This document shows, piece after piece, positions 40,007 through 60,223 of a stretch of 64,000 nucleotides of DNA. The position numbers and the translations under genes were made by a program. Source of the stretch: Sistotremastrum niveocremeum HHB9708 (taxonomy: Eukaryota; Basidiomycota; Agaricomycetes; Sistotremastrales; Sistotremastraceae); assembly GCA_001630475.1 (NCBI GenBank), contig KV419425.1, positions 169,397 through 233,396 of the forward strand, given 5' to 3'. Every line of letters starts with the position of its first letter. Position 1 is the stretch's first letter. The notes below the pieces were generated by a model. It was not told the origin of the DNA, did not search any database, and was given only the letters and a program-made list of their open reading frames with translations.

Positions 40007-41397
40007 TCAGAAGAGCAAGCGAAGACGACCTAAAATCTTGGCTACAAGGGTCATCGGCTCTACTTCTTCCGTCTTCAATTCGGGGATAGGGGGTTGAATA
40101 GGATGATATCTCTTGACGCGAGCTCGGTAGATGTGTTTCCGAACGTCGTCGTCAACAACGTCGAGGTGCTCGCCAAAGCCTCTCAAGGGGGTGCGGAGGG
40201 ACGTCACGGTCTGCTCTTGAAGTAGTGAGTGAACTTTCGAAAGCACATCCATTGCTGAGGGTCTTTCTTTCGGGTTGTCTCGTTGCATCTCGGTGACGAT
40301 GGGCTTGATGAATTCCAGGCCTTTATAACCATAGTACGACTAAGAAACTGATCAGTGTCGAGTTAATATCCTGTTGTGCTCGTACTGCTGACCTCCCATA
40401 AAGCGTCGTGCAGCATGTCACCCATAGCACGTATATCCAAGGCGAAGGGATCATATGACTCTCCGGTAGCGAACTCCGGTACGTCCAAGTCATGTCCCAC
40501 CGCTCCATAGATGTATTCTCTTGCCTCAAAGCTTTCAAACATGACTGATTCGCCAAAGTCGATAATGAGATACTGAACCTGAGCTAAGGTCCTACAAGAG
40601 TGCGGTTCGTTTGAGGTGAGCTTGGGAGAATTTGGATTCGGAGCGTGAAGTAGAGGGCGAACATGGTGAAATCCTTTAGGGAAGAATCCCGTCTTTCCGG
40701 ATCCAGGATTCATCATCGTATTTTGATGACACATATCCCTGAAATAGTATGAAGAGCGGTATAAATCATAGAGAAAAGATACACACAGGTGTGCAATATT
40801 GTGTTCATGCAGAAAGGCAAGGCCCTAGAATACGTTGACCCGTCTGCTCGAGGTCAGGCAACATTTCTCACCTGAACCAAGTGATAGAGACAAGAAAGCA
40901 GTTCGCCCATCGTCTCGAACCGCAGAATACGATAGGTAACAAGAAGCGGCATAACAGTAAGGACGAAGTCGTCAGTGTCCGGAAGTGGATGAACCGCTAA
41001 GAGAGGTACAGAGTGGTTTCGAGGGTCAGACGCTCTCTCTGGTGAGGTCAGATATTGCCAAATAGGCAGCTCCTTAGTACGAGTAGGCACGAGTTTGAGA
41101 GCGACACGTCGTCCGTCGCTATCTCTGACTGCATCCAGAACCAGAGCTCGAAACTGCCAGTGAGCGATGATATGTTAGCTTCCTTGGTGATGAAAGTATG
41201 AACAGAGACCTCACATTGAGCACCAAAGAATCCTCGCTTTTCCTCTGAGGAATGCCACTCGTTAACCACGATGCTTTCCATTTTGGCTGGTATCGCCGTC
41301 GCAGACTGTATCCGATGCTTTTCAGCCATGGTTGATAGTGGGCCCACCGCTTCTCAGGACCAGCTAGCGTTTCGAATGCTGATCTCTCCCTGGGCAT
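40007..41397 (-). CDS. kinase-like protein K1 (cluster subfamily A)
   Basis: Minus-strand exons 41397-41215, 41153-40872, 40824-40787, 40738-40393 and 40339-40007 give 393 aa. The family has an N-terminal block (YQPWLKSIGY near residue 21), a beta3-type lysine (RRVALKLVP), and LPDTDDFVLTVMPLL as hinge. The catalytic loop is AHLDMCHQN, and the metal-binding motif is DFGES. VPEF and DIRAMGDM stand for APE and the helix F Asp. The HRD arginine is leucine, but the catalytic Asp, Asn, DFG Asp and Lys remain, while no glycine-rich loop is visible. It could be an active non-RD kinase or a pseudokinase. A TATAAAAAG on the minus strand (41456-41464) lies about 60 bp upstream of the ATG and supports this start. 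The N-terminal extension of its relative K5 is decayed here. Confidence 0.85.
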
Positions 41398-41455
41398 CTT
41401 GTTTCGGTTGAAGCTTTCCGCCTGCCATAAGACATTCTCTTTATCATGGTGCTCC

Positions 41456-41464
41456 TTTTTATAG
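41456..41464 (-). promoter_or_regulatory. TATA box of K1
   Basis: TATAAAAAG on the minus strand, about 60 bp upstream of the K1 start codon. It lies inside DNA that is coding in the K5 homologue, so K1 appears to start further inside the ancestral gene. Confidence 0.4.
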
Positions 41465-41988
41465 TGCTCTTTTGGGTCGTCTTGCAGCGACCAGAACAAG
41501 GTCAAGCAGACGGCGACCAAGGCCCAAACTATGGATGTCCTTGTCGAGTCGATTGAGCATGGAAATGCAACCTATTCCATCCAGGACAATGAAGACTTTG
41601 TACGGTAGCCCTTGTCTCGGGCGGCAACTGAGACATGTGCAGGACCGATCGTACAAATGAACTGTCTTGAACTTGAAGAGCCTCTGCATTTCACCGGATC
41701 CGGCAACAGCAACAGCAAGAGCCTTGTCTTCCATATTATCGCATGCGTTTGCATTTGCGAGTTCTTTATGTGGATGCTCCAGGACAGGAAGACAGCTGAG
41801 AGCATTCCGTCATCCCGAGATATGAGATTCGTATGATGGTTGAGGAGGAAAAGTACAGAAAATCAGGGTCGTACGCGCGACGGCAACGACAGCGCCACGA
41901 ATTCGAAATGGTCCTAATAAATACTAGTAGGATACGAAAGAAAGTACAAGTTCTAAATCATTGTTCCCAATCCACGTAGTTACCGACA

Positions 41989-42015
41989 CCCTGCTCGACG
42001 TGCATCCTCTCCCTG
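41989..42015 (+). pseudogene. relic of a subfamily B kinase-like exon
   Basis: Twenty-seven bases are identical to K4 exon 2 (the LLDVHPLP-coding region) but embedded in unrelated DNA, on the strand opposite to K1 and K2. It marks a lost plus-strand copy between them. The surrounding 41.4-42.3 kb is otherwise non-coding, apart from the decayed K1 N-terminal extension at about 41400-41750. Confidence 0.5.
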
Positions 42016-42359
42016 GATAAAGTATCTCCGATGGTTTCACAATGAAAAGCTTTGAGGGGCTGTCAAAACATATGACATCGGATTTTTCGACATCCTGATG
42101 ATGGAAGCGGCGCTCAATACCTCGCTGTATATTACAGTAGACGAGAGGACCTCTGGAATTCAGAGAAAACTCTGGAACTGCAAGCTCATCTTGCCAAAGC
42201 TATACCGGTATATATTATGTTAGATTGTGAAATGTCATTAGGTATGGGAGGGAAGTCGTATGAAGCAGTCCGCGTGGATGTAGGAATATACGAACACACA
42301 AAGCTCCGTAGAAATAAATGAGAAGGATAGATGACAAGAAAATACGACCAGCGTCGGAT

Positions 42360-43764
42360 TTACAGCCAGAACTTAAATCTGCTCCACCACCTAGACAAGA
42401 GCGAAAGAGGCTTGACCTCTTCAACCTTTAGCTCGGGGATAGAAGGTTGAATCGGATGGATGCCTTTTACACGTGCCTCAAGGACACGACGACGAACCTC
42501 ATACGGCACAGGACCAGAAGCTGATTCTCGATTTTTGAGTGGTTTTCTAAGTGATGTTACGGACTGGGCAGCAATCAGCGCAGAAAGCTCAGTGAGCGCT
42601 TCGTCCGCAGACGGGCGCTCCGTGGGATCATCAACGCGCATTTTTGCGACCAGGTCTTCGAGCAATTCGAGTTCGCTGTAGGTCTGAGATTCATTATAAT
42701 CAGCATCTATGCTCAGGAAACGCATAAAGAATGAATTACCAGAAGAAGTCCCTCGTTCAAGGTTTCTCCCAACGTCCGGACGTCGAGAGGAAATGGATCG
42801 TAAGGCTCATCTTCGTCCGCAAATTCTGGGACGTTCAGATAATGACCCACGGAGCCACTTATTCGATGCCTTCTCTCGTAGCTTTCGAACCTGACCGATT
42901 GCCCAAAGTCGATGTAATAAAATTTCACGAAGCCTAACGTCCTGGACGCATGCGGAAGAGACGAGGCCAGTCGAGGAGAATTCGGATCGGGCTGATACAG
43001 GGAAAATCGAACAGGATGGAATCCTTGCGGGAACAGTTTAGTACCAGGATCGTACATTGTATTATGAGGACAGATGTCACTGGTAATCATTTCAGCTCAG
43101 CAAATTTTACGAGCAGCCGTGTTGCTTACAGGTGTGTTACGTGATGTTCGTGTAAGAATGCAAGGCCCTAATAGTCGTCAGAGATATTCAAGACTTCAAC
43201 TATGACATACCTGTATAAGATGATATACACAAGAAATGACCTCGCCCACGGTGTCGAAGCGGGGTATTTGATAATTCAAGAGCAAAGGCATGACGGCAAG
43301 AACTGATTCGTCGGTATCTGGGAGCGGGTGAACAGCGAGGAGGGGGACGCAGTGATTGCGCGTGTCGGCGAGCATCTCTGGAGAGGAGAGATACCGCCAT
43401 ATGGGAATCTCTTGTGTAGCCGTTGGCACGAGTTTCAAAGCCACTGGAAAGCCATCGCTTGCTCTTTTCGCGTCCAATACCAATGCTCGCATCTATATAC
43501 ATGGTTGGGAGATTAATTCTGGATTGTGTAGAAAGAGGACAGAGACTCAACGTTTGACACCAAGTAGTCTTCACTCTCCAATTTAGGGTAATCACTCGTG
43601 AGCCAAGACGGTTTCCAATCCGGCTGAAACCTCGCGCGAAGGACGTATCCTATGCTCTTGAGCCACGGTTGATATCTTCCCCAATAAAGCTCGGATCCAA
43701 TGAGGTGTTCAGTGACTGACGGTTTCCGAATTATCTCTATGCATTTAGTGCTCGTAGAGTGCAT
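42360..43764 (-). CDS. kinase-like protein K2 (cluster subfamily A)
   Basis: Minus-strand exons 43764-43552, 43492-43211, 43167-43130, 43079-42740 and 42683-42360 give 398 aa. Exon lengths of 282 and 38 nt and all phases equal those of K1. Key motifs are YQPWLKSIGYVLRARFQPDW, VALKLVP, THLDICPHN (catalytic loop with HLD), DFGQS (the usual Glu after DFG is Gln) and DVRTLGETL. The C-terminal tail is HPIQPSIPELKVEEV, typical of subfamily A. The ATG at 43764 is the first in frame. Upstream DNA to about 44010 still resembles the K5 N-terminal extension (ALVHVSVIVRDKGYTSY) but is closed by an in-frame TAG, so K2 has either lost the extension or splices around it. Confidence 0.82.
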
Positions 43765-44224
43765 GCCTGTAGCTTGGAAAGAAGATGGAGGGGTTTCGGC
43801 GTCGAAGTCCTTGAGTACTGCGTGGGCGAGCTTGGAAATGCGAGACAAGCCATTGAGGTCAGTGTAGCTTGTGTAGCCCTTGTCTCTGACAATAACTGAG
43901 ACATGTACAAGAGCGGCCGTATGAGTGAAGCGTCTCTACAAGTACGCTTTCTCAGATGCGGCGGCCCGGGCAACAGCCTTGTCCAGCGCATGATAATCAC
44001 ATGCGAGGTTCGTGGAACATACAGTATACATAAGTTTGCGGATAATTTATATATGAAGAACATTTTAGCGTAATCAGTAGATCTATAGAGTGAGGAAGAA
44101 GGGCGAATGCATTCGTTGCGGCGTTGAGCCCGATAAGGGCAAGTATAAAAATTAGCATTAAAACGAGAATTCAGACTCTCAACCGAGTAGAAAAGAGTAC
44201 ATCCGAAGCGTGTAGACAATGAAG

Positions 44225-45880
44225 TTAGAACCAGAACTTGAGTCTTCCCCACCATCTGAATAGAAGCGGAAGAGGCTTGGCCTCCTCGAGCTTCAATTCG
44301 GGTATAGGAGGCTGAATAGGATGGACGCCTTTCACCCTGGCTTCAAAAACGCGGCGGCGGATGTCCTCCGATACTGGAGACGCGGTCATTCCTTGCACTT
44401 TCAGAGGCTTCCTCAGCGTCGTCAAGCTTAGGGTAGCTATCAGCGAAGAAACCTCGGATAATGCTTCTGCGGCGGATATTCGTTCGGTGGGATCATCCAC
44501 GCGCATTTTTGACAAGACTTCGTCAAGCAGTCCGAGATCTGTATGGCGCTAAAATCGAACCTAATCAAAAACAGCGCCGAAGATTAAAAAAGCGGAATAT
44601 TACTGATGAAAATCCTTTATGTAGTGTCTCTCCCAGTGTCCGGATGTCTAGCGGAAATGGATCGTATGGTTTATCCTCGGCAAACTCGGGGACATCTAGG
44701 AAATGGCCGACCGGGCCTGATATATAGTGCCTTTTCTCATAGCTCTCAAACATGACCGACTCCCCGAAATCAATGAAATGGTATTTCACGGGGGCAAGCG
44801 TCCTGAAAGAATATGGGCGTGATGTCATGAGTTGAGGGGATTGTGGATCTGGCGTGTAGGAGGATGGTTGAAGAGGATGAAAGCCTTTAGGGTACAGCTG
44901 GGACCCAGGATCGTGCATGGTATTTTGAGCGCAAATGTCACTTAAGCCGAAGGTTAGGTTACAAAACACGTGGATGATGATGCCTGGCTCACAGATGTGC
45001 TACGTTGTGCTCGTGCAAGAATGTCAGGCCCTTACGAGTGTCAGATATATTCTGTGCTGTCTCAACGAAATACCTGTATCAGGTGGTGGACGCAGGACAG
45101 TACCTCGCCCACAGTGTCGAATCGGGGTATCTGATAGTTCAACAGCAGGGGCATGACAGCAAGAACCAGCTCGTCGGTATCTGGAAGCGGGTGAATCGCA
45201 ATAAGGGGGACACAGTGATTGCGGCTGTCGACAAGCCTCTCCGGAGAGGAAAGATATTGCCATATGGGAAGTTCTTGAGTCGTCGTCGGAACAAGTTTCA
45301 AGCCACGGGAAAATTGTCGCACTCTCTTCTCGCGTCCAATACTAAAGCTCGCAGCTACGTATCTTATCATAAGTCGAAGAAGGACATGTAAATGACAGAC
45401 TCAACTTGTGCAACTAAAGAGTCTTCGCTCTCTGATTCTGGTCGGTTGCTCGTGAGCCATGACGGTTTCCAATCCGGCTGATATCTAGGACGAAGAATAT
45501 ATCCTATGCTCTTGAGCCACGCGGTCGGTATCTTGCCCAATAACGCTCAGCTCCAATGAGATGCTCGCTAATCAAAGAATCAGGGATTATGAGTGGGGAT
45601 TTCGTATGCTCAGAGTTCATGATTTCGAAAGGAGATGGAGGCGTCTCAGGATGGAAATTCTTGTGAGCCTGACTGCAGTATTGAGCTTATTAGCTTGATG
45701 ATGTAACGGGATCCATCCGGGGTAGTGTAGCTTTTGCAGGCCTTGTCTTAGGCAAGAACTTGTACTGAGACATGTCCAAGAGCCGCCGCACAAATGAAGC
45801 GCAGCGCCTCTAGATCTACATTTCCCAGCTGGCCAGGCACGGCAACAGCCAGACATGTGTACACATTTGAATAAGTACTT
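44225..45880 (-). pseudogene. K3, frameshifted copy of kinase-like K5
   Basis: The five-exon layout is preserved (3' exons 45030-44993, 44940-44604 and 44548-44225 are intact, with AHLDICAQN and DFGES), and the DNA is very close to K5. Three lesions break it. A one-base deletion near 45301 removes the frame at the VALKL lysine. A two-base insertion near 45520-45526 turns YQPWLKS into YRPRGSRA followed by a stop. An insertion of about 16 bp at 45668-45694, plus a stop before DKACK, disrupt the N-terminal extension. A truncated C-terminal product might still be made from an internal start. This is recent decay after duplication. Confidence 0.8.
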
Positions 45881-46163
45881 GCATTTGTGATCCCATGTTG
45901 CACATGTGAGTTTTACTATGAGGATGCCCCATATAACGGAGAGAGATGGCATTATGTTACGAGCGAGGCTGAAAGAAATCTTGCAAGAGGTATAATAAAG
46001 CAGTGCGTAGAGGATCTAGAGAATAGTACCGGTATAGATGATGGCCAAATAAGTAGAGAAGAGGAGGAAAGGAGGGTCGCGCGCGACTGCGCAGGTCAGT
46101 TTGCGACTACCCAAAACGAAAGAGTCCAGAGAGGTATAAGACGATAAAAAAGGCTATCGATTG

Positions 46164-48040
46164 CTATTGTGCTTGACTTTGAGTAGGGTTGTATTTCACT
46201 CTCCTAGCTTGACGACGCGGCAGTATCCAGCTTCTCCAAAAGGGTAGGTGATCCGGATCACCGCGTCGGATGGGTGGATAGTAGACAGCATGACTCGAAG
46301 GAATAGTCTTCAAAGTCTCGTCCCATGATACTGATTGAAGACCGTTGGGTCCCCGAAGTGCTTGGTCCCATTCTTCCTTGAATGCTGTTATAGTGGGCCT
46401 TTGCGACGGATCGGCCGACAAACAGAATGCGAGGAGAGGACGAAGCCTTGTTGGCAAACAGTCTAAATAATCGGCAGTTTCTTCATCGATGTACTCGTTG
46501 CTTCCATAGATGTAAAGTCTCTCCAGATCTCCATCGGAACCTCTGTCTCGCATGGGGACCTTTGAACGGGTGATAAGCTAATAAATTAATCAGGGGGGGT
46601 TCGCGCTTTTGTTGAGCTAAACGTGTTCGACATACCTCGAAAGCGGTCATCCCGAAACCCCAAAGATCAGCCTCTGCAGTCAAAGACAGCTCTGGTAGTG
46701 GAGGGCCATCGTTTTTCACATCCTGGTGTTTTTGCCGGACAATCTCAGGAGCAGTCCAGAGCGGATTACCGCCGACTTTTGTCGCTTGAACAGGCGTGGG
46801 AGAGCAGATCTTCGATAGTCCAAAGTCTGTCAGTTTAGCGACGGGATTCTTTGGCGTGCCAAAGAGCAAGACATTATTCTGCGTATGTCAATGAGAAACA
46901 AATGATGATCGATAGGAAGCGTGAACGGACCCCTTTTAGATCACCATGATAGACCGCATCGGCCTGGAGGTGCATATACTGCAGGCCATTCAAAATACCA
47001 CTCAACTATCATGCCAATGAATGAGCGGCACCCCAACTTGGCAGCAAGGCACTCACAATAGTAAGAGTTTGGTCTCGATTGACGCTGTCTTGAAGAAATG
47101 CAGTCGCTGTGCCCATGCCATTGACTGACACGTCTGCCCAGGGGCTTAAGATGACGATCGCAGGCTGTGGATTGAGGTTGTCGGACAGCTGAGCTTTGAA
47201 CACGTCGAAGAGAGGATTGATATTTTCATGATTCAGAAGTTTCCAGATATCGGCTTCTCTCGTGAAACGCTGTACGAACTTCTGAGTATGTTGTGATAGA
47301 ATGACATTAAATTAGAATGCTCACTCGTTCAGTGTTGATGATGTCGAGATCCCTTGGTTTTGGGGTCTTCATGGCCAGATACTGAGGGCGATCCGACCCA
47401 GTCTCGTTTGGTTGAAACCATACCATACGGACTTCGCCGTATCCACCGGCATCATGATATGTATCGTGATATCGTATTATACCCTTTGAAAACTGCAGGA
47501 AGTTCTTCCCCTTCCTCTCTTCTAAAATCTGCTGACTCTTCTGCAGACTTCATTAGACGATAGTCAATTGGCTATACAAACCGCCACCTACAGTCGTTTC
47601 TCGTTCGAGACGATTCACGTTTTCCGCGAGGGGCTTGAAGGCTACCTCCAGGCTGCGTGTACCACCAGCTTTCCGTTTGGCCATTTGCGTGCGCAACTCA
47701 TGAAGGCGCAAGGAAGCACTAGAAAAACTTCCGTGAACGTTGGACTTATATTCGATAAGTAGCAGCACATACTTGCTCATTCTGGTCTCTCTGTCCTTTG
47801 CTATCTCGTCCCCGACCCCGTGCTGGAAATCGGGATCTTCTTTCATGTTGAGGTGTAGCTGGGCGACTTTGGCTAGTATCTCTTGTGTCGCGGAACATCG
47901 AGCTGAGAGGAGAGTGATGAGAAAAGGCATCAAAGCGCACAGCCAAAGCAACTCTCACCAGGCAGCGACTCCTGTGGGTCATTTTGTGTATTGGCAGCGC
48001 TAGCACGCCGAATTTTCAGGTTCAGGGAAAGGAATGGCAT
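46164..48040 (-). CDS. TKL-like protein kinase KN1
   Basis: Eight minus-strand exons: 48040-47959, 47902-47773, 47718-47592, 47540-47325, 47281-47057, 47005-46931, 46878-46636 and 46577-46164, for 503 aa. The helical N-terminal region (about 28-125) has no recognised fold. The kinase domain follows: glycine loop GGYGEV (145-150), lysine in LAMKTPK (171), HENINPLFDVF before the hinge, catalytic loop YHGDLKGNN (Asp282), DFGLSKI (303-309), WTAPEI and a C-lobe ending near 480. The loop is HGD, so it is a non-RD kinase with all catalytic residues present. In related fungal TKL-like kinases the HGDLKG loop is common. The gene is head to head with K4 across 351 bp, and its exon plan is matched by KN2. 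Confidence 0.9.
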
Positions 48041-48391
48041 TTGAACGAGTGCCAGAGGTTGAGAGGACTTTGATTCAGAGACATGTCACAAGCCTTTATA
48101 GCTCAAGAGAATCCCTGACGACCCCAAGAACACAACAAGATCGATAAGCATGGAAGATCGATTCTGAAAAACATTTTTGAAAAGACATCGAGACGAACTG
48201 AAGAGCTTGAGCTTGACTAGGCAGCGGCTACGTTCGGCAAGCGGAATTTCAATTACGTTTATAGCACGCGCGGGTGCATTTCATTTATCGCGTAGTAATC
48301 ATGAACAAATTCAAATACTCTTTACGCATCTCCCGTGCCAACACAACTCCCCTGCAAATGGTCCTCCCTGGTCATACCAGCTAACTACATC
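48041..48391. promoter_or_regulatory. divergent promoter between KN1 and K4 (351 bp)
   Basis: The start codons of KN1 (minus) and K4 (plus) flank this segment. A minus-strand TATAAAGG (48093-48100) sits 53 bp upstream of the KN1 ATG. No clear TATA is seen toward K4. A single shared regulatory region for both genes is inferred. Confidence 0.5.
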
Positions 48392-49802
48392 ATGCCAACA
48401 TCGAGCTATCTGCATACCTATGAAAAGCGGAAGGAAGAGCATCTGTTAGAGCTCGGGAAACTGAGCTCGACCGAACAGCGATGGGCGAGCTACCAACCTT
48501 GGCTGAAGAGCATTGGCTACGACTTGAGACCCAGATATCAACCGGGTTGGAAGGCGTCGTGGTTAACATCTGGTATAGATGCATTCGATAGTGAAGATGC
48601 ACTCCTTCCAAACGTAAGACTAGCCTGCAGAGAGCCGACTGTAGCTAACGATGATGTTCCAGGTATATGGGAAGGTCATGGACGCTGTCAGACTGAGCGA
48701 TGACCTGCATGTTGGATTGAAGCTCCTTCCGACTCACCGAAAAGAGCTGCCTATCTTGACCTATCTGTCATCCGCTCCTCAAAGCGCGGACCCGCGTAAC
48801 CACGCCGTTCCCCTGCTCGACGTGCATCCTCTCCCTGACACGGACGAAGAAGTGCTGGTTGTCATGCCTCTCCTGGTCTATTTTGACAGACCACCCTTCG
48901 AAACAATAGGGGAAATTCTATTATGCATCTACACTTATCTGGAGGTATGACACAGTACCTGATGTTCATTCGAAGCTGACGCTGTTGTCGAAGGGACTCG
49001 TTTTCTTACATGAACACAACATCGCGCATCTGTGAGCCTTCTACATCTGCCACATCCCCTTTGACTAAGTTATATCAGAGACATTTGCGCCGCGAACGCG
49101 CTTCAGGATCCCGGAACGGAATTATTTCCTAAAGGTTTTCACCCAGCGCGACCAACTTATTATGTTCCAAAACCGAAGTCTCCCAGAATCCGCGGCGACC
49201 CCCCACACTCCTCTCGCACCCTATCACCCGTCAAATATTACTTCATCGACTTCGGCGAATCTGTTCGATTTGTTAGTCACGAATCGAGGACGCTGATTTA
49301 CGGGACTGTTGGCCACGATCTGGGAGTACCTGAGTTTGCCTCAGGCGGCGCTGATAGAGGATTTGATCCCTTCCGGCTTGACATTCGTGCACTAGGGGAT
49401 ATGATTCAAACTGATATGCTTGACGTGAGTCGAACTTCCTATGATTATGACCATATGAACGGAATTGAACAGGAATACTACGATTTGGATATGCTCATGC
49501 CGCTACTGGATGAAATGCGCAAGAATGTTCCTGAAGAACGACCCGAAGCAGGCGAAGCATTAGAGATAATGAAAAAGATTATCTCAGAGCAGAGCACAGA
49601 AGATTTGGCTGCCTTCGCACGACAGCGGAAAGTGTACACATCCCGGTCCATGATCAAGCAATACCACCGACATCGCTGGCAGTTGCAATTGATGGGTCGT
49701 CCTCCCATCTATCCGAGTATTCCTGGTTTGGAAATCCCGCCTCTGAAGCCTCTGAACTTTTTCTCGAAAACATTGACTCGCCTTCGCCTTTTAATTTCTT
49801 GA
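48392..49802 (+). CDS. kinase-like protein K4 (cluster subfamily B)
   Basis: Exons 48392-48613, 48663-48944, 48994-49031, 49079-49424 and 49473-49802 give 405 aa. The order is an N-terminal YQPWLKSIGYDLRPRYQPGW block, VYGKVMDAVRLSDD, Lys94 (VGLKLLP, where the usual Ala before the lysine is Gly), the hinge VVMPLLVYFD, catalytic loop AHLDICAAN (Asp182), DFGES (238-242) and DIRALGDM. The subfamily B tail is YHRHRWQLQLMGRPPIYPSI. The N-lobe is short and lacks a glycine-rich loop. Nearest relative in the window: K6. The gene pairs head to head with the kinase KN1 and is convergent with K5. Confidence 0.87.
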
Positions 49803-50435
49803 TATCATCTTTTACGCATCTTCATTTTCAACCTCATCCTGCATTCTTTACTAATCTAATTGACTTATCACGTTTGTCGAAACCAGTATAACAGGGCCGG
49901 TAATAATCTGTAGAGCTCGAACGATTTTTGTGCTTGTTCTCCCATTGCTCTTCGTATCTGACAAGCTTGTATTCAAAGTCATGTTGCTCACCGTTTCCAG
50001 TCATCTTCACATAGTGCACACGGGCTCTCGCTAAGCCAGATTCAGAAACACTCCCTCCGCATTTTGAATTGGGGGACGTTCAGTCGCTCGAGCACAATAG
50101 AAATGAGAAGGTTAACGCTAAATTTATGACTCTGTTTCAGAGTAGAACGAGTTGATGGGAAGCCCATCACGATACTTATATTTCGACTCCCGGCCACCTT
50201 AGAAAGAGGTACAGTAGCGCCCATCACAGAACTTCCGTGTAGTATGAGGGGACAGCGCTACTAAAATCCGAAGAGACATCCACGAAATGTGAGCGGGCCT
50301 TTATAATTCCGTAAGGACACGAATATATAATGGTGAATTGTGACTGCTAAACGGGTCTTGGGAGGGAGACTTTGTGAAGAAATACCGCAAGACGGATGGG
50401 AGAATATGGCAAGAGACACAGAGATAGATGACTAG
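49803..50435. other. convergent spacer between K4 and K5
   Basis: No gene-like frame. It carries the 3' flanks of both genes. Confidence 0.45.
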
Positions 50436-52068
50436 TCAGACTAAGAGCCAAAACTTGATCTTCTCCCACCATCTAGATAACAGTGGAAGACGCTTGACTT
50501 CCTCGAGCTCCAATTCGACTACAGGAGGCTGGATAGGATGAACACCTTTGATCCGTGCCTCAAAAATGCGACGGTGGATTTGTTTCCGCCCATAATCTGT
50601 CGCATAGGCTCGCTCTGTCACAGGCTTCCTCAGTATCTTCAAATCTTGCGTAGCTATCAGCGAAGAAAGCGCAGACAGTGCATCTGCGGCCGATATTCGT
50701 TTCGTAGGTTCATCAACGCGCATCTTTGACAAGATCGGATTGAGTAGTTCGAGGTCGGAGTAACGCTAGAATCAGCTCCCGTCAGAAATAGTGTCTAAAA
50801 TCAGAAAGGTGGAATATTCACAGATGCAAATCCCCTATGTAATGTTTCTCCCAATGCCCGGATGTCAACAGGGAAAGGGTCGTAGGGTTGATCCTCCGCA
50901 AATTCGGGAAGATCTAGGTAGTGACCAACCGAGCCAGATATGTAGTGCCTCTTCTCGTAACTCTCAAACATGACCGACTCCCCGAAGTCAATGAAATAAA
51001 TTTTGACGGGGGCAAGCGTCCTTGAAGAAACCGAGTATGACGGAACAAGCTGAGGAGAGTTTGGGTCTGGGGTGTAAGAGGACGGCTGAAGAGGATGAAA
51101 GCCTTTCGGGTAGAGCTTAGACCCGGGATCGTGCATGGTATTTTGAGTGCAGATATCACTGAGGCACAAGATTAAATCTCTAACACTCGAAAACATGAGA
51201 CACGCTTACAGATGTGTCACGTTATGCTCGTGCAAGAATGTCAGACCCTGGACATTGTCAGATGTGGCCTGTGATCTTATTGCAACAGCGTACCTGTAAC
51301 AGATGGTGAACGCAAGATAGCACCTCTCCTACAGTGTCGAATGTGGGTATCCGATAACTTAACAGCAGAGGCATCACAGCCAGAACGAGATCGTCTGTGT
51401 CTGGCAGTGGATGAATTGCAAGAAGCGGGACACAGTGATTGCGACTGTCGACAAGCCTCTCCGGAGACGAAAGATATCGCCATATGGGAAGTTCTTGAGT
51501 AGTTGTCGGAACAAGTTTCAAAGCCACAGGAAAATTGTCGCACTGTCTTCTCGCGTCCAACACCAGAGCTCGCAGCTATCTATACTATCAGAAGACGAAG
51601 CAGGACGTGTACAATGAGGACAGACTCAACTTGCACAACTAAAGAGTCTTCGCTCTCTGATTCCGGTCGGTTGCTCGTGAGCCATGACGGTTTCCAATCC
51701 GGCTGATATCTAGGACGAAGAATATATCCTATGCTCTTGAGCCATGGTTGATATCTTGCCCAATAACGCTCAGCTCCAATGAGATGCTCGCTCATTAAAG
51801 AATTCGGTATTGTGAGCGGGAATTTCGTACGCTCAGAGTTCATGATTTCGAAAGGAGATGGAGTCGTCTCAGGATGGAAGTCCTTGTGAACCTGACCGAG
51901 CTTGATAATGCAACGGGATCCATCCGGGGTAGTATAGCCTTTGCAGGCCTTGTCTTTGGCAAGAACTGAGACATGTCCAAGAGCCGTCGCACAATTGAAG
52001 CGCAGCGCCTCTACATTTCCCCACGGCAACAGCCAGACGCCTTCGAATCCAATACTACTTGCACCCAT
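50436..52068 (-). CDS. kinase-like protein K5 (cluster subfamily A, with intact N-terminal extension)
   Basis: Minus-strand exons 52068-51631, 51575-51294, 51247-51210, 51158-50822 and 50765-50436 give 474 aa, about 80 residues longer than K1 and K2. The extra N-terminal part (about 1-90; FNCATALGHVSVLAKDKACK) is open only in this copy. The kinase-like core has YQPWLKSIGYILRPRYQPDW, VALKLVP, THLDICTQN, DFGES and DIRALGET. It is probably the least damaged subfamily A gene and the source of pseudogene K3. It lies head to head with K6, 116 bp between start codons. The ATG at 52068 is the first in the open frame. An internal ATG (MNSERTKFP) would give a protein of K1 size. Confidence 0.83.
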
Positions 52069-52184
52069 GGTCGCGTGTTGAACATGTTGCTTTATTGTGA
52101 GGATGCCCCAAATCCATGTCTGGCTACAACGTAACCGCCCTGTAATCAATCACCCACTGGCATAGCATCTAGTTCTCCCAAATC
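52069..52184. promoter_or_regulatory. short divergent promoter between K5 and K6 (116 bp)
   Basis: Only 116 bp separate the two start codons, so both genes must share promoter DNA. No clear TATA box is seen. If K5 starts at its internal ATG the spacer is correspondingly longer. Confidence 0.5.
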
Positions 52185-53603
52185 ATGACGAGCCCCACGA
52201 ACATGTATACTCATGCACAACGGAAGGAAGAGCACTTGAGATATCTCGGGGAACTGAGGGTCACGGAGCAGCGATGGGCGAGCTATCTGCCATGGCTAAA
52301 GAGCCTGGGTTATGATCTGAGACCTAGATATCAACCCGGTTGGAAAGCCTCATGGTTGACCTCTGGCATAGGTGCTTTTGAAAGCGAGGACGCACTGCTT
52401 CCTAATGTGAGGACAGCAATGTTCAAGGAGCCTACTTGTCGCTGACAATCATGCACTAGGTCTATGGGAAGGTCATGGACGCCAAAAGACTAAGTGACGG
52501 CCGAGTTGTCGCCTTGAAACTACTTCCTACCCACCGTAAAGAGCTGCCCATCTTGACCTATCTATCATCAGCTCCTCGAAGAGCGGATCCCCGAAATCAC
52601 AGCGTGCCCCTTCTCGACATCCATCCTCTTCCTGATACGGACGAAGAGGTTTTGGCCGTCATGCCTCTGCTCGTATATTTCGACCGGCCGCCCTTTGAAA
52701 CGATAGGAGAGATTTTATTGTGTATCTATACGTACTTAGAGGTACGATTGATTCAGTCTGCATCATTCGAATCTTACCTGTTTTGTCAGGGACTCGTCTT
52801 CTTGCATGAACACAATATCGCACATCTGTGAGCTCCACCCCGACTGTCAGATCTTCACCTTATATGACTCCCCTTCAGAGATATTTGTGCAGCGAACGCT
52901 CTTCAGGATCCGGGGACCGAACTATTTCCCAAAGGTTTCCATCCAGCGCGACCCACATACTACGTCCTCAAACCTGGGACACTGAAAATCCGTGGCAATC
53001 CTCCACATACATCCCGCACCCTTTCACCAGTCAACTATCACTTCATCGATTTCGGCGAATCCATCAAGTTTGAAAGTCTCGAATCGAGAAAACTAATTTA
53101 TGGGACAGTTGGCCACGACCTAGATGTTCCCGAGTTCGCCGGAGGCGCCGCCGATAGAGGGTACGATCCTTTTCGTCTCGATATTCGAGCATTCGGAGAT
53201 ATGATTAAAGTTGAAATGTATGAGGTATGTCATATCTTTTCGATCATTTGGGCGTGTGATGAAGGTCAAACAGGAATATCATGGCTCGGAGATCCTGAAG
53301 CCTTTGATCGAAGCAATGTGCAGGGACATTCCCGAAGAGCGTCCCGAGGCCGTTGAAGCCTTGGAGATCCTAAAAGGGATTATATCATCCCAGACTCCAG
53401 AGACTCTAGCTGCCTTCGCACGACAGCGAAAGGTATATTCCGCCTCATACAGGGTCAAGCAGTATCACCGACATCGCTGGGAGCTGCAATTGATGGGTCG
53501 CCCGCCTATATATCCGAGCATCCCTGGTTTAGAAGTCCAACCCCCTCGACCGTTGAGCTTTTTCTTCCGAACATTGACGCGTCTCCGTCTTCTAATTTCT
53601 TGA
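52185..53603 (+). CDS. kinase-like protein K6 (cluster subfamily B)
   Basis: Exons 52185-52406, 52460-52741, 52790-52827, 52879-53224 and 53274-53603 give 405 aa. Every exon length equals that of K4. Motifs are YLPWLKSLGYDLRPRYQPGW, VYGKVMDAKRLSDGRVVALK, AVMPLLVYFDRPPFETIGE, AHLDICAAN, DFGES and DIRAFGDM, with tail MGRPPIYPSIPGL. It is closely related to K4, the ancestral VALK lysine context is kept here, and no disabling change is seen. It shares its promoter with K5 and is followed by a relic of another subfamily B gene. Confidence 0.88.
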
Positions 53604-53919
53604 AAATTACTTACGCTACAACGTTTCTCCCGCATCGTTTCGGATTCTTCACTCATAACATTATCGAGTTTCTACATGCTTGATTCTACGAGTCTCACAT
53701 GTATTCAAATCGCATTGTGGCTCAGACGTCCTTCCGCCTTATATTATCAATAGTATACCCTAGTTGTGGATCATGCTACTTACCATCATTTTGCATAATG
53801 ATTACCTGTCTGTGTCGCATTTCGTACTAAAAGTTTTTGAGCCATGGCTGACAGCCCGCAGAAGCTCAAGCTCTAGAAACCTAGATCATCACTGTTCCTG
53901 ACGTCGACCCTTGTGTAGG

Positions 53920-54035
53920 CATGTGTTTTGACGTACATTACACTCATGCACTACGAAAGGAAGACCAGTTGAAATATCTTAGATAACTGAGAGTAAGCTT
54001 AAGCGAGCAGCGAGGGGCCGCCATGCATCGATATG
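53920..54035 (+). pseudogene. relic of a subfamily B first exon
   Basis: About 100 bp align with the start of K6: TACTCATGCACAACGGAAGG and the following AAATATCTTAG.TAACTGAG blocks correspond to YTHAQRKEEH and YLGELR. The frame is broken by a TAG and TAA and the homology ends abruptly. It is the remains of a plus-strand copy between K6 and K7. The rest of 53604-54227 holds nothing recognisable. Confidence 0.65.
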
Positions 54036-54227
54036 GATAGGGACCATGCTCGTAGATTATGCAAGATAGCGGCAAACAACATGCGGGAAAACTAGGGTAT
54101 ACTGGTATACGCGCAATAAACCGGGGAAATATGAGCTCCAACCAATTCAGATCCCATACTACAAAGACGCTCATGTTAGCAAAGCACGATCCAGAATCCG
54201 AAGGTAAGCTTACAAATAGTGATAGGG

Positions 54228-55629
54228 TTAGGAAGTCAAAAGGCGAAGATGAGTCAGCGCTCTAGATATCAAGTTCAACGGCTTCGGGATCGGAAGCTCT
54301 AAACCTGGTATCTCGGGGTAGATGGGAGGACGCCCCAACAACTGAGCTCTCCAGCGGTGTCTCCGATATTGCTTAGTCAGGAAAGTCAGTAACACATTAT
54401 CAGACGGTCGTGCAAAGGTAGCCAAAGAGTCCGAGCTCTCATTCGAGATGATATTTTTCATCATCTCCAAGGCTTCAGAAGCCGTCGGCCGTCGTTCTGG
54501 TTCATCTCGGCACATCGCATCTATCAGAGGTTTCAACATATCAAGGCCAAGATACTTCTGAATCGCGGGATTACTGCAAGCTGTGATTCGGTTACTCAAC
54601 TACGCACCTCGTGCAGCTCTGCTTTAAGCATGTCCCCCATCGCCCTGACATCAAGCCTGAACGGATCGACTCCGCGTATGAAGGCGCCTGACGTGAATTC
54701 AGGCACGTCGAGATCGTGTCCAACCGTCGAGAAGATCAGTTGTCTGTCTTCGATGCTGTCATATTTAATCGATTCTCCGAAGTCAATGAAATAGTATTTG
54801 ACGGGAGCTATAGTGCGCGACTGATAGGGCGGCCCTGTGATGATTTTTGGAGAGCCAGGTTTGCTGACATAATAAGACGGCCTAGCAGGATGGAAGCCCT
54901 TGGGATAGAGGTCGACGCTTGGTTCTTGGAGTACATTTGCTGCGCAAATATCGCTGAATAAGTCTCGTGAATAATGGAGGAGACCAGGTTCGGTTCGCGC
55001 TCACAGGTGGGCCACATTGTGCTCGTGCAGGAAAGCCAACCCCTAAGATAAGTCAGACTTCGGTAAAGCAGCTGGATCATTATTACCTCCAGATACGTAT
55101 GCACGCACAACATAATTTCGCCCAACGTTTCGAACGGCGGGTCGTCGAAATAAATTAAAAGTGGCATGATGGCTAGAACTTCATCATCCGTGTCGGGAAG
55201 AGGGTGAACGTCGAGCAAGGGGGCGGAGTGATTGCGAGGATCGCTACTGAGTGCAGAGGATGAGAGGTATTTCCAAATTGACAATTCGTGGCGGTCGGTG
55301 GGCAGCAACTTCATCGCAACGACGCGACCGTCGCGCACCCTGGTCGCGTCCATGATCTTCCCATGAATCTAAATCATCGTTAGCTCTGCACTTCAGAAAG
55401 AGAGCAAACTCACGTTGGGTAGAAGAGCGTCTTCACTGTCCAAGACGCCAATCCTTGAGGTCAACCACGACGCGGACCAGCCAGGCTGATACCTGGGTCT
55501 CAGTTCGTAACCGAGGCTCTTAAGCCATGGTTGGTAGCTAGCCCATCGCTGCTCGCGATCGTTCAATTTCTCAAGGTATTTGGCATGCTCTTCTAGTCGT
55601 TTTGCATTGGGTCGAGCCGCGGCGGTCAT
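54228..55629 (-). CDS. kinase-like protein K7 (cluster subfamily B)
   Basis: Minus-strand exons 55629-55414, 55368-55087, 55042-55005, 54953-54608 and 54557-54228 give 403 aa. The product has YQPWLKSLGYELRPRYQPGW, IHGKIMDATRVRDGRVVAMK, AIMPLLIYFDDPPFETLGE, AHLDICAAN, DFGES and DVRAMGDM, with tail LGRPPIYPEIPGL. The IHGKIMDATR start of exon 2 is shared with K8 and differs from VYGKVMDA in K4 and K6, so K7 and K8 form a sub-branch. The frame is intact, but a LINE tail ends only about 100 bp upstream and a GA microsatellite lies in the leader, so its promoter is probably altered. Confidence 0.87.
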
Positions 55630-55644
55630 GAACGCTGGCGTACA

Positions 55645-55667
55645 AGAGAGAGAGAGAGAGAGAGAAA
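55645..55667. repeat. (GA)n microsatellite
   Basis: About eleven GA units in the leader of K7, about 16 bp upstream of its start codon. On the K7 strand it reads CT-rich, a common fungal promoter/leader feature that is also prone to length change. Confidence 0.85.
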
Positions 55668-55734
55668 ATTCGTATTTGTATACCGCAGGGGGCAAGCGCT
55701 AGTGGAGCCCAGACGCGGTCGGCCAGAGGCCGGC

Positions 55735-56370
55735 TATCTACTGTAGTCTAATATACATAATGTTAAATTACATGAGGTGGTGGGGAGAGTATGGGTATGA
55801 GATTGAAGGTGTATCGGGTCGAAATGAGCAGTGAATGTGACGAAACTTAAATGAAAATTAGGAGTTTGACTCTCCTGGGTGGGTCTCGCGGCCGGCTGCT
55901 TTGGCAAAGGCATCACTCCGTCGAATGAACTCTGCCAAAGCTTCGATTCCGTCTGATTCACCAAGCAGTCGCTGTAGTGATAGATCTCGGTCGTAGGTCC
56001 GAAGGATCTCTCGGTGTTCTTCAAACAGTGGACACTCTTGTATGATGTGTGCCCGAGTCTGGAAGTGTTCTCCGCATGGGCAATCTGTGGTCTCCGTCCG
56101 TACGAAGTCTGCGTAATATTCCCCAATAAATGCATGGCCTGTCCGGCATTGCAACGTGCGTCCGTATTTCCTTGGAAGCTTCTTGAAATGTTTCTTCAGC
56201 TTCCATGAGGGTGTCATTCGGTTGGCAGGGGCGAATCGACGAGAGGGCTGGCGTACAAGAGCTCGTACAGGCTGAGTAGATGCAATCGCGTTGCCGCGGC
56301 GCCGGGTCAGCCGTAATAGCGCGTATATGAATAAATTGCAAAGGAACTCTGTGGCATTGATGCATTGCAA
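55735..56370 (-). mobile_element. 5'-truncated LINE (non-LTR retrotransposon), 3' part
   Basis: A minus-strand frame (56370-55858) encodes the C-terminal end of a LINE polymerase protein: RTLQCRTGHAFIGEYYADF, then CPCGEHFQTRAHIIQECPLF, a CxC...H...C knuckle found after the RNase H region in many fungal LINEs. It ends PGESNS and a stop. The AT-richer tail to about 55735 is taken as 3' UTR. Reverse transcriptase and endonuclease parts are missing, as is usual after incomplete reverse transcription. No clear poly(A) or target duplication is visible, so the ends are approximate. Confidence 0.85.
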
Positions 56371-56564
56371 GTAAAAAAGGTGCGGTAGTAACCAGATGCG
56401 TCGGTGATGATATACATATTATACTACGGTATGCGAGGGGGAAATTGAAATAGGGTATATAATAATCACATGTGAGTGACAATCATAGCGCTGCTACTGC
56501 ATATTTTGAAGAAAAGTGACCATAAGTTGTGATCCATGAGGCAAAGTCCTCATTCTGAGTATCA

Positions 56565-58459
56565 TTACGCTTTCAGGGTAACTAGCTTGTATTTGGCCTT
56601 TCTGGCATCACGGCGAGGCTTCGCCGAATTACGCCACGAAGCTATCTGATCCAACGCTCCAGGGTTCGTAGGAGGATAGTATATGGAATGAGCTGGGGGA
56701 ACAGTTTTGAGAAGCTCTGGCCATGGCATCGAGGCCGGCCCCTGTGGTTCGGCGACAAGCGAGTCCCATCGCTTTTTCAGTTCCGATACGCTGGGCCTTT
56801 TCGATGGGTCGGCCGTGAGGCAGGAAGCCAAGAACGATCGGAGGAGATTGGGAATGCAATCCAGATATTCGGCCAATTCTTCATCGATATATTCTGAGGA
56901 TTCCGCATATAGAATCGAGAGAGAGATGCCTAGATGATCGCGTTCGCGCATAGGCCGCGCACGTGTTATGAGCTAAGAACAGGAAAGATCAGCAATAGAC
57001 AATGGGGGATTTTTCGAAGAAATTACCTCGAAGGCAGTCATGCCGAAACCCCAAACGTCTGCCTCGGCTGTCAGAGTCCGCTTGGCCCTTTCTGCATGTC
57101 CTATTTCCTCAGAAGCATCCTCCACCCATCGTGCTATCTCTGGAGCTGTCCAGAAGACGTTACCACCAACCTTCGTGGCTCCATTTGGTATCGGCGAACA
57201 TATCTTAGAGAGACCAAAATCAGTCAGTTTTGCGACCGGATTTCGTGGCGTGCCGAAAAGTAAGACGTTATTCTGAGAAATTCCCGCAGTTAAACCCGCA
57301 GTTAAAAACAAAGATAAGATAAGAGTCAAAGAATAAATTCACCCCTTTCAGATCTCCATGATAGACAGCATCGGGAAGTTCATGCATGTATCTGAGTCCT
57401 TCCAGAATACCGCTCAACTACAATAATCAGTCCAATCATGACGTGTGTAAACCTGGGAAATCAACGCACGATAGTCAGGGTATGCTCGCAATTCGAGATT
57501 TCACGGAGGAATGATGACGCTGTAGCATCCTGGGCGCCTGGGCAGAGAGGATCTGCCCATGGACTCAATAGTGTGACGACAGGTAATTCATCACCCGGCA
57601 ATGTAGTCTCGAACATGTCGAAGAAAGGATTGATGTTCTCGTGGCGCAACGACCTCCAAATCGCGGCTTCCCGAAGAGCTTGCTATGGATGATGGTCAGA
57701 GATATGATGAGACTGGGTGTCATAGAACATACTCGACGGACGGCTTCAACATCTTCATCTTCTACCTTGGCCGTTTTCATAGCTATATAGCGTGATTTCA
57801 CCGATGAAGTATCATTCGGTTCGAACCAGGCCTTTCTCACTACCCCGAAGCCGCCAGCGGCATTTGTTTCACTCTTGTAATAGATCGTGCCTTCTTGACA
57901 AGGCAAAGTGTGTTGTCCTTTCCTGTTCAACAGAGCTCTTTTAGTGCTCTAGGTTGCGAAGTCAACCGGATGTAGTCTGCATGTGGGAAATGAACCGTAC
58001 CGTTACTTCGATGCCGATATCCCATACACTCTGCTGCGTGACAGTAAAAACCTGGTCTATCCGTTGTTTCTCTTTATCGGAAGACGCTTTGCGATCTTGT
58101 AAACGAAGCTGTCCAAGACTATCGGAAAGACTTAAACGAGCGTTTGTTAGCTCTGGCAAGTCGTGGTAGGAAATGCAGAGTCCCGAACTTACGAGCACAT
58201 CGTCCGCTCCCGAGCTGAAGCCACATCAGGTCCGTATGTTGTAAGGAAATCTGGGTCGTCCATCATGTTAATATGGTCTTGCGTGGTCCGGGCCAACGTG
58301 TCCTGCGTCTCCGAATGTCGATCTTTGACAGGGAATGAGAATTTCCAAGACAGATTACGAAACAGAGAGGACAGGTGAGTACTCACCATACTCCGAGGGG
58401 AATTTGGGCCTGGTTGTTTTGGAGCGACGGGATATCGCTGATGAGAAGGATTCCAGCAT
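56565..58459 (-). CDS. TKL-like protein kinase KN2
   Basis: Eight minus-strand exons: 58459-58387, 58322-58193, 58130-58001, 57948-57733, 57682-57470, 57417-57343, 57272-57027 and 56972-56565, for 496 aa. Intron phases are the same as in KN1, and exons 2, 4 and 6 have equal lengths. The helical N-terminal region is followed by GGFGVV (143-148), Lys169 (YIAMKTAK), HENINPFFDMF, catalytic loop YHGDLKGNN (Asp276), DFGLSKI (297-303), WTAPEI and WGFGMTAFE. All catalytic residues of a kinase are present with a non-RD (HGD) loop. It is head to head with K8 across 358 bp, repeating the KN1/K4 arrangement. The LINE tail lies downstream. Confidence 0.9.
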
Positions 58460-58817
58460 TTTGGATGGAAAGTTGATGGTGTCAGGGAGCGAAGAGAACA
58501 GAGCGTGTCAAGCAACGAGGAACTTGAGACAGCCAAAGGGAGGAAACGAGCAAAGTGAAGAGCATGCGATCTAGAGGCTTGCGAATCTTTATAGATGCAC
58601 GGCAGTAACAGCGATACTTGAATTCGCTATTCATTATACTGTTACAAGAACCTGCAGAATCTGAAATTCGCCGGGCCCGGGGGAGACACGCTATCGGTTA
58701 CCGGATGTCTGTATTCATGTATGTAGTGGTTTTCATATTTAGTTTCATGAATACGCGTCACGCGCCTCTGGGTCACACACCGTTCATGCGTTTAGGCAAA
58801 AGCAGGTCCCCCTCTTC
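58460..58817. promoter_or_regulatory. divergent promoter between KN2 and K8 (358 bp)
   Basis: The spacer between divergent start codons is almost equal in length to the KN1/K4 spacer. A minus-strand TATAAAGA (58586-58593) lies 127 bp upstream of the KN2 ATG. Sequence similarity to the other spacer is not obvious by eye. Confidence 0.5.
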
Positions 58818-60223
58818 ATGACGGCTACTACGACGAGCAACGCGCTTTGGAAAGATAATTCAAAACTCCTCGAGAAACTTGACGGCAACGAACAGCGTTG
58901 GGCAGACTATCAGCCATGGTTGAAGAGCCTGGGCTATGACCTTCGACCGAGATACCAGCCTGGTTGGTCACCGTCATGGTTAACCTCAGGCCTTGCGGCA
59001 CTTTCAAGCGAAGATGCCCTACTACCTAATGTCAAGTCCTTCATTGTGTCATACTATACTACTGACCGATAGTTTACCACAGATACACGGGAAGATCATG
59101 GATGCGACGAGAACACGGGATGGCCGGACAGTGGCGTTGAAACTCGTACCCACCGACACCCAGGAATTGCCAATATGGACCTATTTATCGTCTCCGAAAC
59201 TTAAATCAGACCCTCGAAACCATTGCGTGCCGCTCTTGGACGTTCATCCATTACCTGATTCCGACGACGAAGTGCTGGCTGTGATGCCGATACTTGTTTA
59301 TTTTCATCGGCCGTCATTCGAAACTCTCGGGGAGATCATGCTTTGTGTTCATACGTACTTGGAGGTAAGTCTCCGTTCCCACTTCAGGTCCATCATTTCA
59401 ATTGAGTGTGCCCTCAGGGCCTCGCTTTCCTGCACGACCACCATGTTGCCCATCTGTCAGTCGCCCTCATGCCTCAATGTTGATTCTCGCTGACAAATCC
59501 TAGTGATATATGTACGGCGAATGTCCTTCAGGACCCTGGGAAGGATCTTTTCCCTGAAGGATTTCATCCTGCCAGGCCAACTCACTACTTCCCAAAACAG
59601 AACTCCTCCGAAGTCGCTATAGGTACGCCATATACGTGTCGCACTCTTGCGCCAGTGAAATTCTACCTGATCGACTTCGGAGAGTCTGTGCGATATGAAA
59701 ATTTCCAAGCAAGACGGCTTATGAACGGGCAAGTCGGCCATGACCTGGATGTCCCGGAATTTTCTGGCGACAAGTGGTATGACCCCTTCAGACTCGATAT
59801 TCGTGCTATGGGGGATATGCTTAAGACTCAACTGTATCAGGTACGTTCAAAATCGAGGTTAACACGAATGCTGATTTTCCAAAACAGGCTTACTACGGAT
59901 TGGAAGCCCTGACACCGCTGATTGACGTGATGTGCAGAGATCAACCTGATCAACGACCAACCGCGGCTGAGGCGCTGCGCATGTTGAAGGATATCATCGA
60001 AAAGCAGAGTACGCGATCCTTGGCCGCTTACATCGAACCGCAGGACCGCTACCTGCAGGCACTATCAGCCAGGAAGTATCGCAGGCATCGCTGGGAGATC
60101 CAACTATTAGATCGCCCTCCCATATACCCCGAGATCCCAGGATTGGCGAAGCCTATAAAGCCTTTGAACGTATTCTCAAAGACATGGACCCGATTTCGTC
60201 TGCTAACCACAACTGACCTCTAA
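58818..60223 (+). CDS. kinase-like protein K8 (cluster subfamily B)
   Basis: Exons 58818-59030, 59083-59364, 59418-59455, 59504-59840 and 59888-60223 give 401 aa. Motifs are YQPWLKSLGYDLRPRYQPGW, IHGKIMDATRTRDGRTVALK, AVMPILVYFHRPSFETLGE, AHLDICTAN, DFGES and DIRAMGDM, with tail LDRPPIYPEIPGL. All expected family residues are present and the frame is intact. Closest relative K7. It is transcribed away from the kinase KN2 and ends the cluster. Confidence 0.88.

Follow-up and report, generated by a model that had tools for sequence, protein, structure and literature searches.

The stretch of DNA analysed here (the window) covers 64,000 nucleotides of contig KV419425.1 (C32 below) of Sistotremastrum niveocremeum HHB9708, from position 169397 to 233396. 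Window positions 40007-60223 hold eight copies of a short, divergent kinase gene (K) and two genes for a more conventional-looking protein kinase (KN), exactly the numbers given in a first-pass annotation made from the sequence alone. The models were predicted from sequence with a custom spliced protein-to-DNA aligner, as were all other K and KN models used here, and their spans occupy 15.0 of the 20.2 kb (Table 1).

Table 1. Predicted K and KN genes and the stretches between head-to-head partners, in window coordinates
Feature	Position	Strand	Basis and remarks
K1, short divergent kinase gene, subfamily A, five exons	40007..41397	-	Spliced model; intact
K2, subfamily A, five exons	42360..43764	-	Spliced model; intact
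K3, subfamily A	44228..45620	-	Spliced model; two frameshifts (exons 1 and 2)
KN1, protein kinase with extensions of its own at both termini, eight modelled exons	46164..48040	-	Spliced model; PF00069 94.9 bits
KN1-K4 intergenic stretch, possible shared promoter	48041..48391	.	351 bp between divergent starts
K4, subfamily B, head-to-head partner of KN1	48392..49802	+	Spliced model; intact
K5, subfamily A	50436..51843	-	Spliced model; intact; upstream in-frame start at 52068 possible
K6, subfamily B	52203..53603	+	Spliced model; intact; alternative start 52185; divergent to K5, no KN between
K7, subfamily B	54228..55629	-	Spliced model; intact
KN2, protein kinase	56565..58459	-	Spliced model; draft protein PF00069 94.2 bits; first exon (58387-58459) rests on one of two models, the profile model starting at 58389
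KN2-K8 intergenic stretch, putative promoter	58460..58817	.	358 bp between divergent starts; one exact copy of ATACATGAA and two with one mismatch
K8, subfamily B, head-to-head partner of KN2	58818..60223	+	Spliced model; intact

The 20-kb boundary first drawn around this cluster is wrong. The array runs on outside the window to C32:346.0 kb, with 19 K genes within 137 kb (C32:209.4-346.0 kb). Searches of the 34.7 Mb assembly (111 contigs) by tblastn with K peptides, combined with gene models, recover 22 K genes, the remaining three lying singly on contigs C5, C10 and C34; all counts reported here come from this single genome. Two stretches of C32 inside or beside the array and beyond the window, at about 233.3-243.4 kb and 329.0-337.1 kb, read N and translate as X. 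Genes located there would be missed, so the K and KN counts are lower bounds. A weak K fragment (21 residues, E 0.002) occurs outside the window near C32:324.5 kb. The gene fragments claimed for the window itself did not hold up, as tblastn at E 0.05 finds no K or KN remnants there outside the models.

Several other sequences flank or interrupt the array. Immediately to its left, a gene at window positions 36615-37553 encodes a centrosomin N-terminal motif (PF07989, E 2.4e-13). An open reading frame (ORF) between K7 and KN2 (window 55861-56418) resembles by eye the end of a retroelement, and Pfam returns no match for it at E 0.01. Two longer ORFs, of 1918 and 1326 aa, lie between K genes at about C32:276.2-282.0 kb and 337.6-341.6 kb and look by eye like retrotransposon polyproteins. 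At about C32:398.5 kb is an ORF for a class II peroxidase, whose best matches are versatile and manganese peroxidases, in keeping with a lignin-degrading Agaricomycete.

All eight K models of the window follow the five-exon plan initially described for them, with intron phases 0,0,2,0. The exon sizes claimed as invariant are so in part. Exon 3 measures 38 nt in all eight models, and indeed in all 22 genome-wide. Exon 2 measures 282 nt in seven of the eight, a frameshift reducing it to 281 nt in K3, and in 16 of the 22. The division of K into two subfamilies with different tails is recovered in the tree, where subfamily A (K1, K2, K3 and K5) falls in a 100/100 clade apart from subfamily B (K4, K6, K7 and K8). 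Upstream of the subfamily A genes lies a conserved stretch (up to 93%; families D14-D16), at window positions 41605-41667 (K1), 43829-43935 (K2), 45692-45760 (K3) and 51899-52005 (K5). In K2 and K5 the stretch has no stop codon in the frame of exon 1. It could represent either a regulatory element or a longer N-terminus.

K3 is the frameshifted copy that had been recognized in the window. Genome-wide, frameshifts or a stop break five of the 22 K copies (K3, K11, K14, K15 and K16), although single breaks could be assembly errors. The other 17 models are intact, including K20 with its short first exon. Duplications in the K and KN trees are mostly on the K side. These two observations support the birth-and-death evolution that was proposed for the locus.

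The predicted K proteins carry the catalytic residues (Lys, Glu, HxD, Asn and DFG) by which members of the eukaryotic protein kinase superfamily are recognized. All 22 copies have the Lys, the Glu, H-L-D and, within DFG, the F and G; 21 have the Asn and 21 the D of DFG, the exceptions being the broken copies K16 and K14. The catalytic Asp is residue 179 in K8. In nine K proteins aligned and inspected by eye, no GxGxxG glycine-rich loop precedes the Lys. None of the seven intact K proteins of the window reaches the gathering score of PF00069 (31.7 bits); the best scores 27.5 bits and K4 has no match at E 0.01. Automatic annotation may therefore miss or misname these genes. At least one K copy outside the window matches PF00069 more strongly (best E 9.3e-11 among nine K proteins). 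A K profile finds kinase structures with a best E of 1.3e-5, some unrelated repeat proteins also being listed. The fungal kinase family FunK1 (Pkinase_fungal, PF17667) matches two of nine K proteins at E 1 or better (best E 0.0031). Its weak match to K1 spans 43 residues and, at 16.7 bits, falls below the curated cut-off of 24.1 bits. Two short peptide patterns each, run against viral_contigs and genome_contigs, confirmed no K relatives outside fungi.

The K C-terminus may form an amphipathic helix. Fewer than 5% of shuffles reach its amphipathic moment in six of the 17 intact copies and more than 5% do so in the other 11, which is suggestive only; a combined p is invalid for paralogues.

KN is clearly a protein kinase, as judged from its predicted sequence. 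HGD and DFG are kept in eight of eight copies, and KN1 scores 94.9 bits against PF00069 and 74.1 bits against PF07714. Its nearest solved kinases, at similar E-values, are STE-group STK24 (4.6e-12) and TKL-group B-Raf (4.2e-11), so that the label 'TKL-like' given to KN in the first-pass annotation is tentative. No domain above the curated cut-off is found in the N-termini of six of the eight proteins (KN1, KN2, KN4, KN5, KNc5 and KNc34), and for this reason an MLKL- or HeLo-like reading of the region was dropped.

A search of the genome with KN5 returns eight loci followed by weaker kinases (best on C44, E 2e-7). With KNc10 and KNc5 as queries, some KN members rank below certain other kinases, among them those on C1 (9e-12) and C2 (5e-10). 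Eight KN genes are recognized here, and further matches on C2, C36, C9, C7, C33, C23, C45, C11 and more were left out. The eight form one clade against four outside kinases (99/98) in a tree that carries a long-branch warning. The outside kinases lack the KN C-terminal tail and have intron positions in common with KN. Candidates for a ninth, unpaired KN gene on C44, C42 (one of three), C5 (354 kb), C1 and C49 were rejected, since their alignments stop at the C-lobe without the KN tail. Those on C42, C5, C1 and C49 also fall outside the KN clade in the tree. No K gene lies within 7 kb of the C44 candidate, and no K locus is listed in the 2.3-2.8 kb covered around the others. On C42, three matches to another kinase type are found within 6 kb (218.8, 221.2 and 225.0 kb); the one examined has intron positions as in KN, but has HRD and lacks the KN tail.

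Every one of the eight recognized KN genes, dispersed loci included, is flanked on its 5' side by a K gene transcribed away from it. These pairs are KN1/K4, KN2/K8, KN3/K12, KN4/K15 and KN5/K18, together with KNc5/C5a on C5, the pair of KNc10 on C10, and KNc34/C34a on C34. The gaps between partners are 351-905 bp. All eight are thus head to head within the 1 kb that delimits a divergent gene pair. Apart from the two pairs of the window, the gaps are 440-905 bp, where one end is the K start, or the first base modelled for K, and the other is the first KN exon recognized. For the remaining 14 of the 22 K genes there is no KN partner. K5 and K6 are also divergent, so KN with K is not the only head-to-head combination.

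The stretches between partners could act as shared promoters. The 9-mer ATACATGAA occurs upstream of four of the eight paired K genes and none of the 14 unpaired ones, with seven occurrences in 261 kb. This degree of sharing is matched by 0.5% of shuffles. However, the motif was picked from the same data, and tests with 7-mers and 8-mers were not significant (0.285 and 0.115), so it was set aside as a shared promoter motif and may serve as a lead only.

The partners also appear to have descended together. Distances among the eight paired K genes correlate with those among the eight KN genes (r 0.876), a value equalled by 2 of 40,320 relabellings, the true one included, but not once when eight K genes were drawn at random 20,000 times. 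When KN4/K15 and KNc34/C34a, each holding a broken member, are removed, r is 0.915 (1 of 720). KN1-KN4 have K genes on both sides, and for these the 3'-side K gives r 0.203 versus 0.868 for the head-to-head K, each from six distances. Three sister pairs are common to the two trees: K4 and K8 (81/86) with KN1 and KN2 (80/93), K12 and C5a with KN3 and KNc5 (100/100 in both trees), and K15 and C34a (98/99) with KN4 and KNc34 (97/96). Support for grouping KN4 with KNc34 is lost in the kinase-domain tree that includes outside kinases. The deepest KN branch, on C10, is also paired with K, so that the KN family of this genome probably inherited the pairing from its ancestor. Position and descent together support a putative joint KN-K unit. 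The 'paired signalling locus' raised as a possibility in the first-pass annotation is therefore upheld in a stronger form, with all eight KN genes head to head with K and co-diverging.

Mirrored trees would also result from co-duplication alone. K and KN may have been neighbours in the founder of an ordinary array of expanded mushroom kinase families and have been copied together, leaving an order that is functionally meaningless. This explanation is possible, if on the whole not probable. Kinase expansions are known in mushrooms: the available portions of two papers name FunK1, AgaK1 and TKL kinases as expanded in Coprinopsis and Laccaria (PMC4215621) and describe a TKL expansion in Laccaria (PMC2838846). 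Moreover, all 20 matches of an approximate consensus for a mushroom kinase-like family fell on K loci. However, silent sites are saturated in the three KN sister pairs, as in older K pairs, and yet all eight pairs have been kept. The K genes on the other side of KN are scrambled. Finally, the three dispersed loci, each of 9 kb, have no further flanking ORF in common. Wherever an ORF of at least 50 aa there matches the array or an ORF of another of these loci, it belongs to K or KN or runs antisense to them, within the stretch covered (about 4-5 kb beyond K and 0.25-1.3 kb beyond KN).

One pair of K genes in the window may trace back to a unit that lost its KN. K5 and K6 point in opposite directions with starts 359 bp apart, and their nearest relatives are K3 (81%) and K4 (80%), at dS of 0.47 and 1.06, respectively. 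It is as if the K3-KN1-K4 trio had been copied and the KN gene then lost, but the difference in dS indicates that this would not have been one simple event.

Maximum likelihood estimates of dN/dS for the four closest K pairs are 0.17, 0.25, 0.11 and 0.16; three of these pairs include a broken copy, and K4/K6, which does not, gives 0.11. Comparisons in which all copies are intact yield 0.13 (K2/K12) and 0.19 (K5/K12). Apart from the N-terminus, the least conserved K stretch corresponds to residues 326-350 of K8. By these ratios K paralogues are under purifying selection with one loose region, paralogues being no substitute for strain data. The first-pass annotation had likened the cluster to immune, incompatibility or allorecognition loci and had named dN/dS among K copies as a check. 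The resulting range of 0.11-0.25 for the closest copies speaks against a fast-evolving recognition locus, and a role of this kind is not supported.

HD1/HD2 mating genes and paired plant immune receptors consist of divergently transcribed, co-inherited partners. An allorecognition or incompatibility locus built on HD1/HD2 logic would have K and KN alleles that differ between strains, mismatched combinations setting off a reaction when hyphae fuse. In favour of such a locus are the broken copies, the expansion on one side, the co-inheritance of divergent pairs and the loosely conserved K8 stretch. Set against these are the low dN/dS values, and Pfam shows no recognition domain in K or KN, which makes this explanation quite unlikely. 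Among the matches listed from the somatic incompatibility literature, in the portions available, there is no lead to KN-K. Highly improbable is a selfish pair in which one kinase harms and the other protects: two tightly linked, co-inherited genes would suit it, and the kinase domain of the Spok drivers of Podospora is required for resistance (PMC6660238, available portion), but neither K nor KN shows a toxic domain, each retains its catalytic residues, and the copies are many, the pairs old and some K genes alone.

We lean, by a modest degree, toward a reading in which the window is part of an array of co-inherited two-kinase modules, amplified mainly on the K side. Each unit would pair two divergent genes, one for KN, a conventional-looking kinase extended at both termini, and one for the short divergent kinase K, and the two would be expressed together from the stretch that separates them. 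Both partners are probably active kinases, given the catalytic residues they keep, with K using an unusual nucleotide loop. K and KN could target each other or a single complex, and K is perhaps tethered by its basic amphipathic C-terminus. One-sided duplication would supply extra K genes, generating variants around a few KN partners. The likeliest setting of such a module is stress, biotic or developmental signalling.

The K family may belong to the AgaK1 kinases. AgaK1 is likewise a short kinase family, expanded in Coprinopsis and Laccaria according to the available text of PMC4215621. In the accessible portions of two further reports, a protein called AgaK1 fell 5.9- and 7.1-fold when Coprinopsis met two bacterial challenges (PMC4704728), and the genes down-regulated in a fungal co-culture of Sanghuangporus include an AgaK1 homologue (PMC13214342). 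The available text of the literature naming AgaK1 makes no mention of a head-to-head partner. KN resembles TKL and FslK kinases, the latter known mainly from Agaricomycetes (PMC3937382, available portion), in being a full kinase, and its intron positions are common to other kinases of the genome. It differs in forming its own clade, with a C-terminal tail absent from the four others. Expansions of mushroom kinases are already known. Among the literature matches listed on paired or clustered mushroom kinases, as far as their available portions go and with subscription literature mostly outside their scope, the head-to-head KN-K pairing is without report.

Two-kinase modules of this kind also invite a bolder analogy, which we consider unlikely. 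KN-K could be a class of recognition modules not described before in mushroom-type fungi, each a matched set of two kinases. K would lend variable specificity and KN the output, and partners would fit each other only if inherited together, much as in HD1/HD2 genes or paired immune receptors. KN-K is like those systems in being divergent and co-inherited, and unlike them in that both partners are kinases, for which allele matching or a part in mating or immunity would be hypothetical.

Large kinase families to which no role has yet been assigned are a feature of mushroom genomes. If every KN is tied to one K partner, through head-to-head placement and common descent, this would identify the proteins with which such kinases work.
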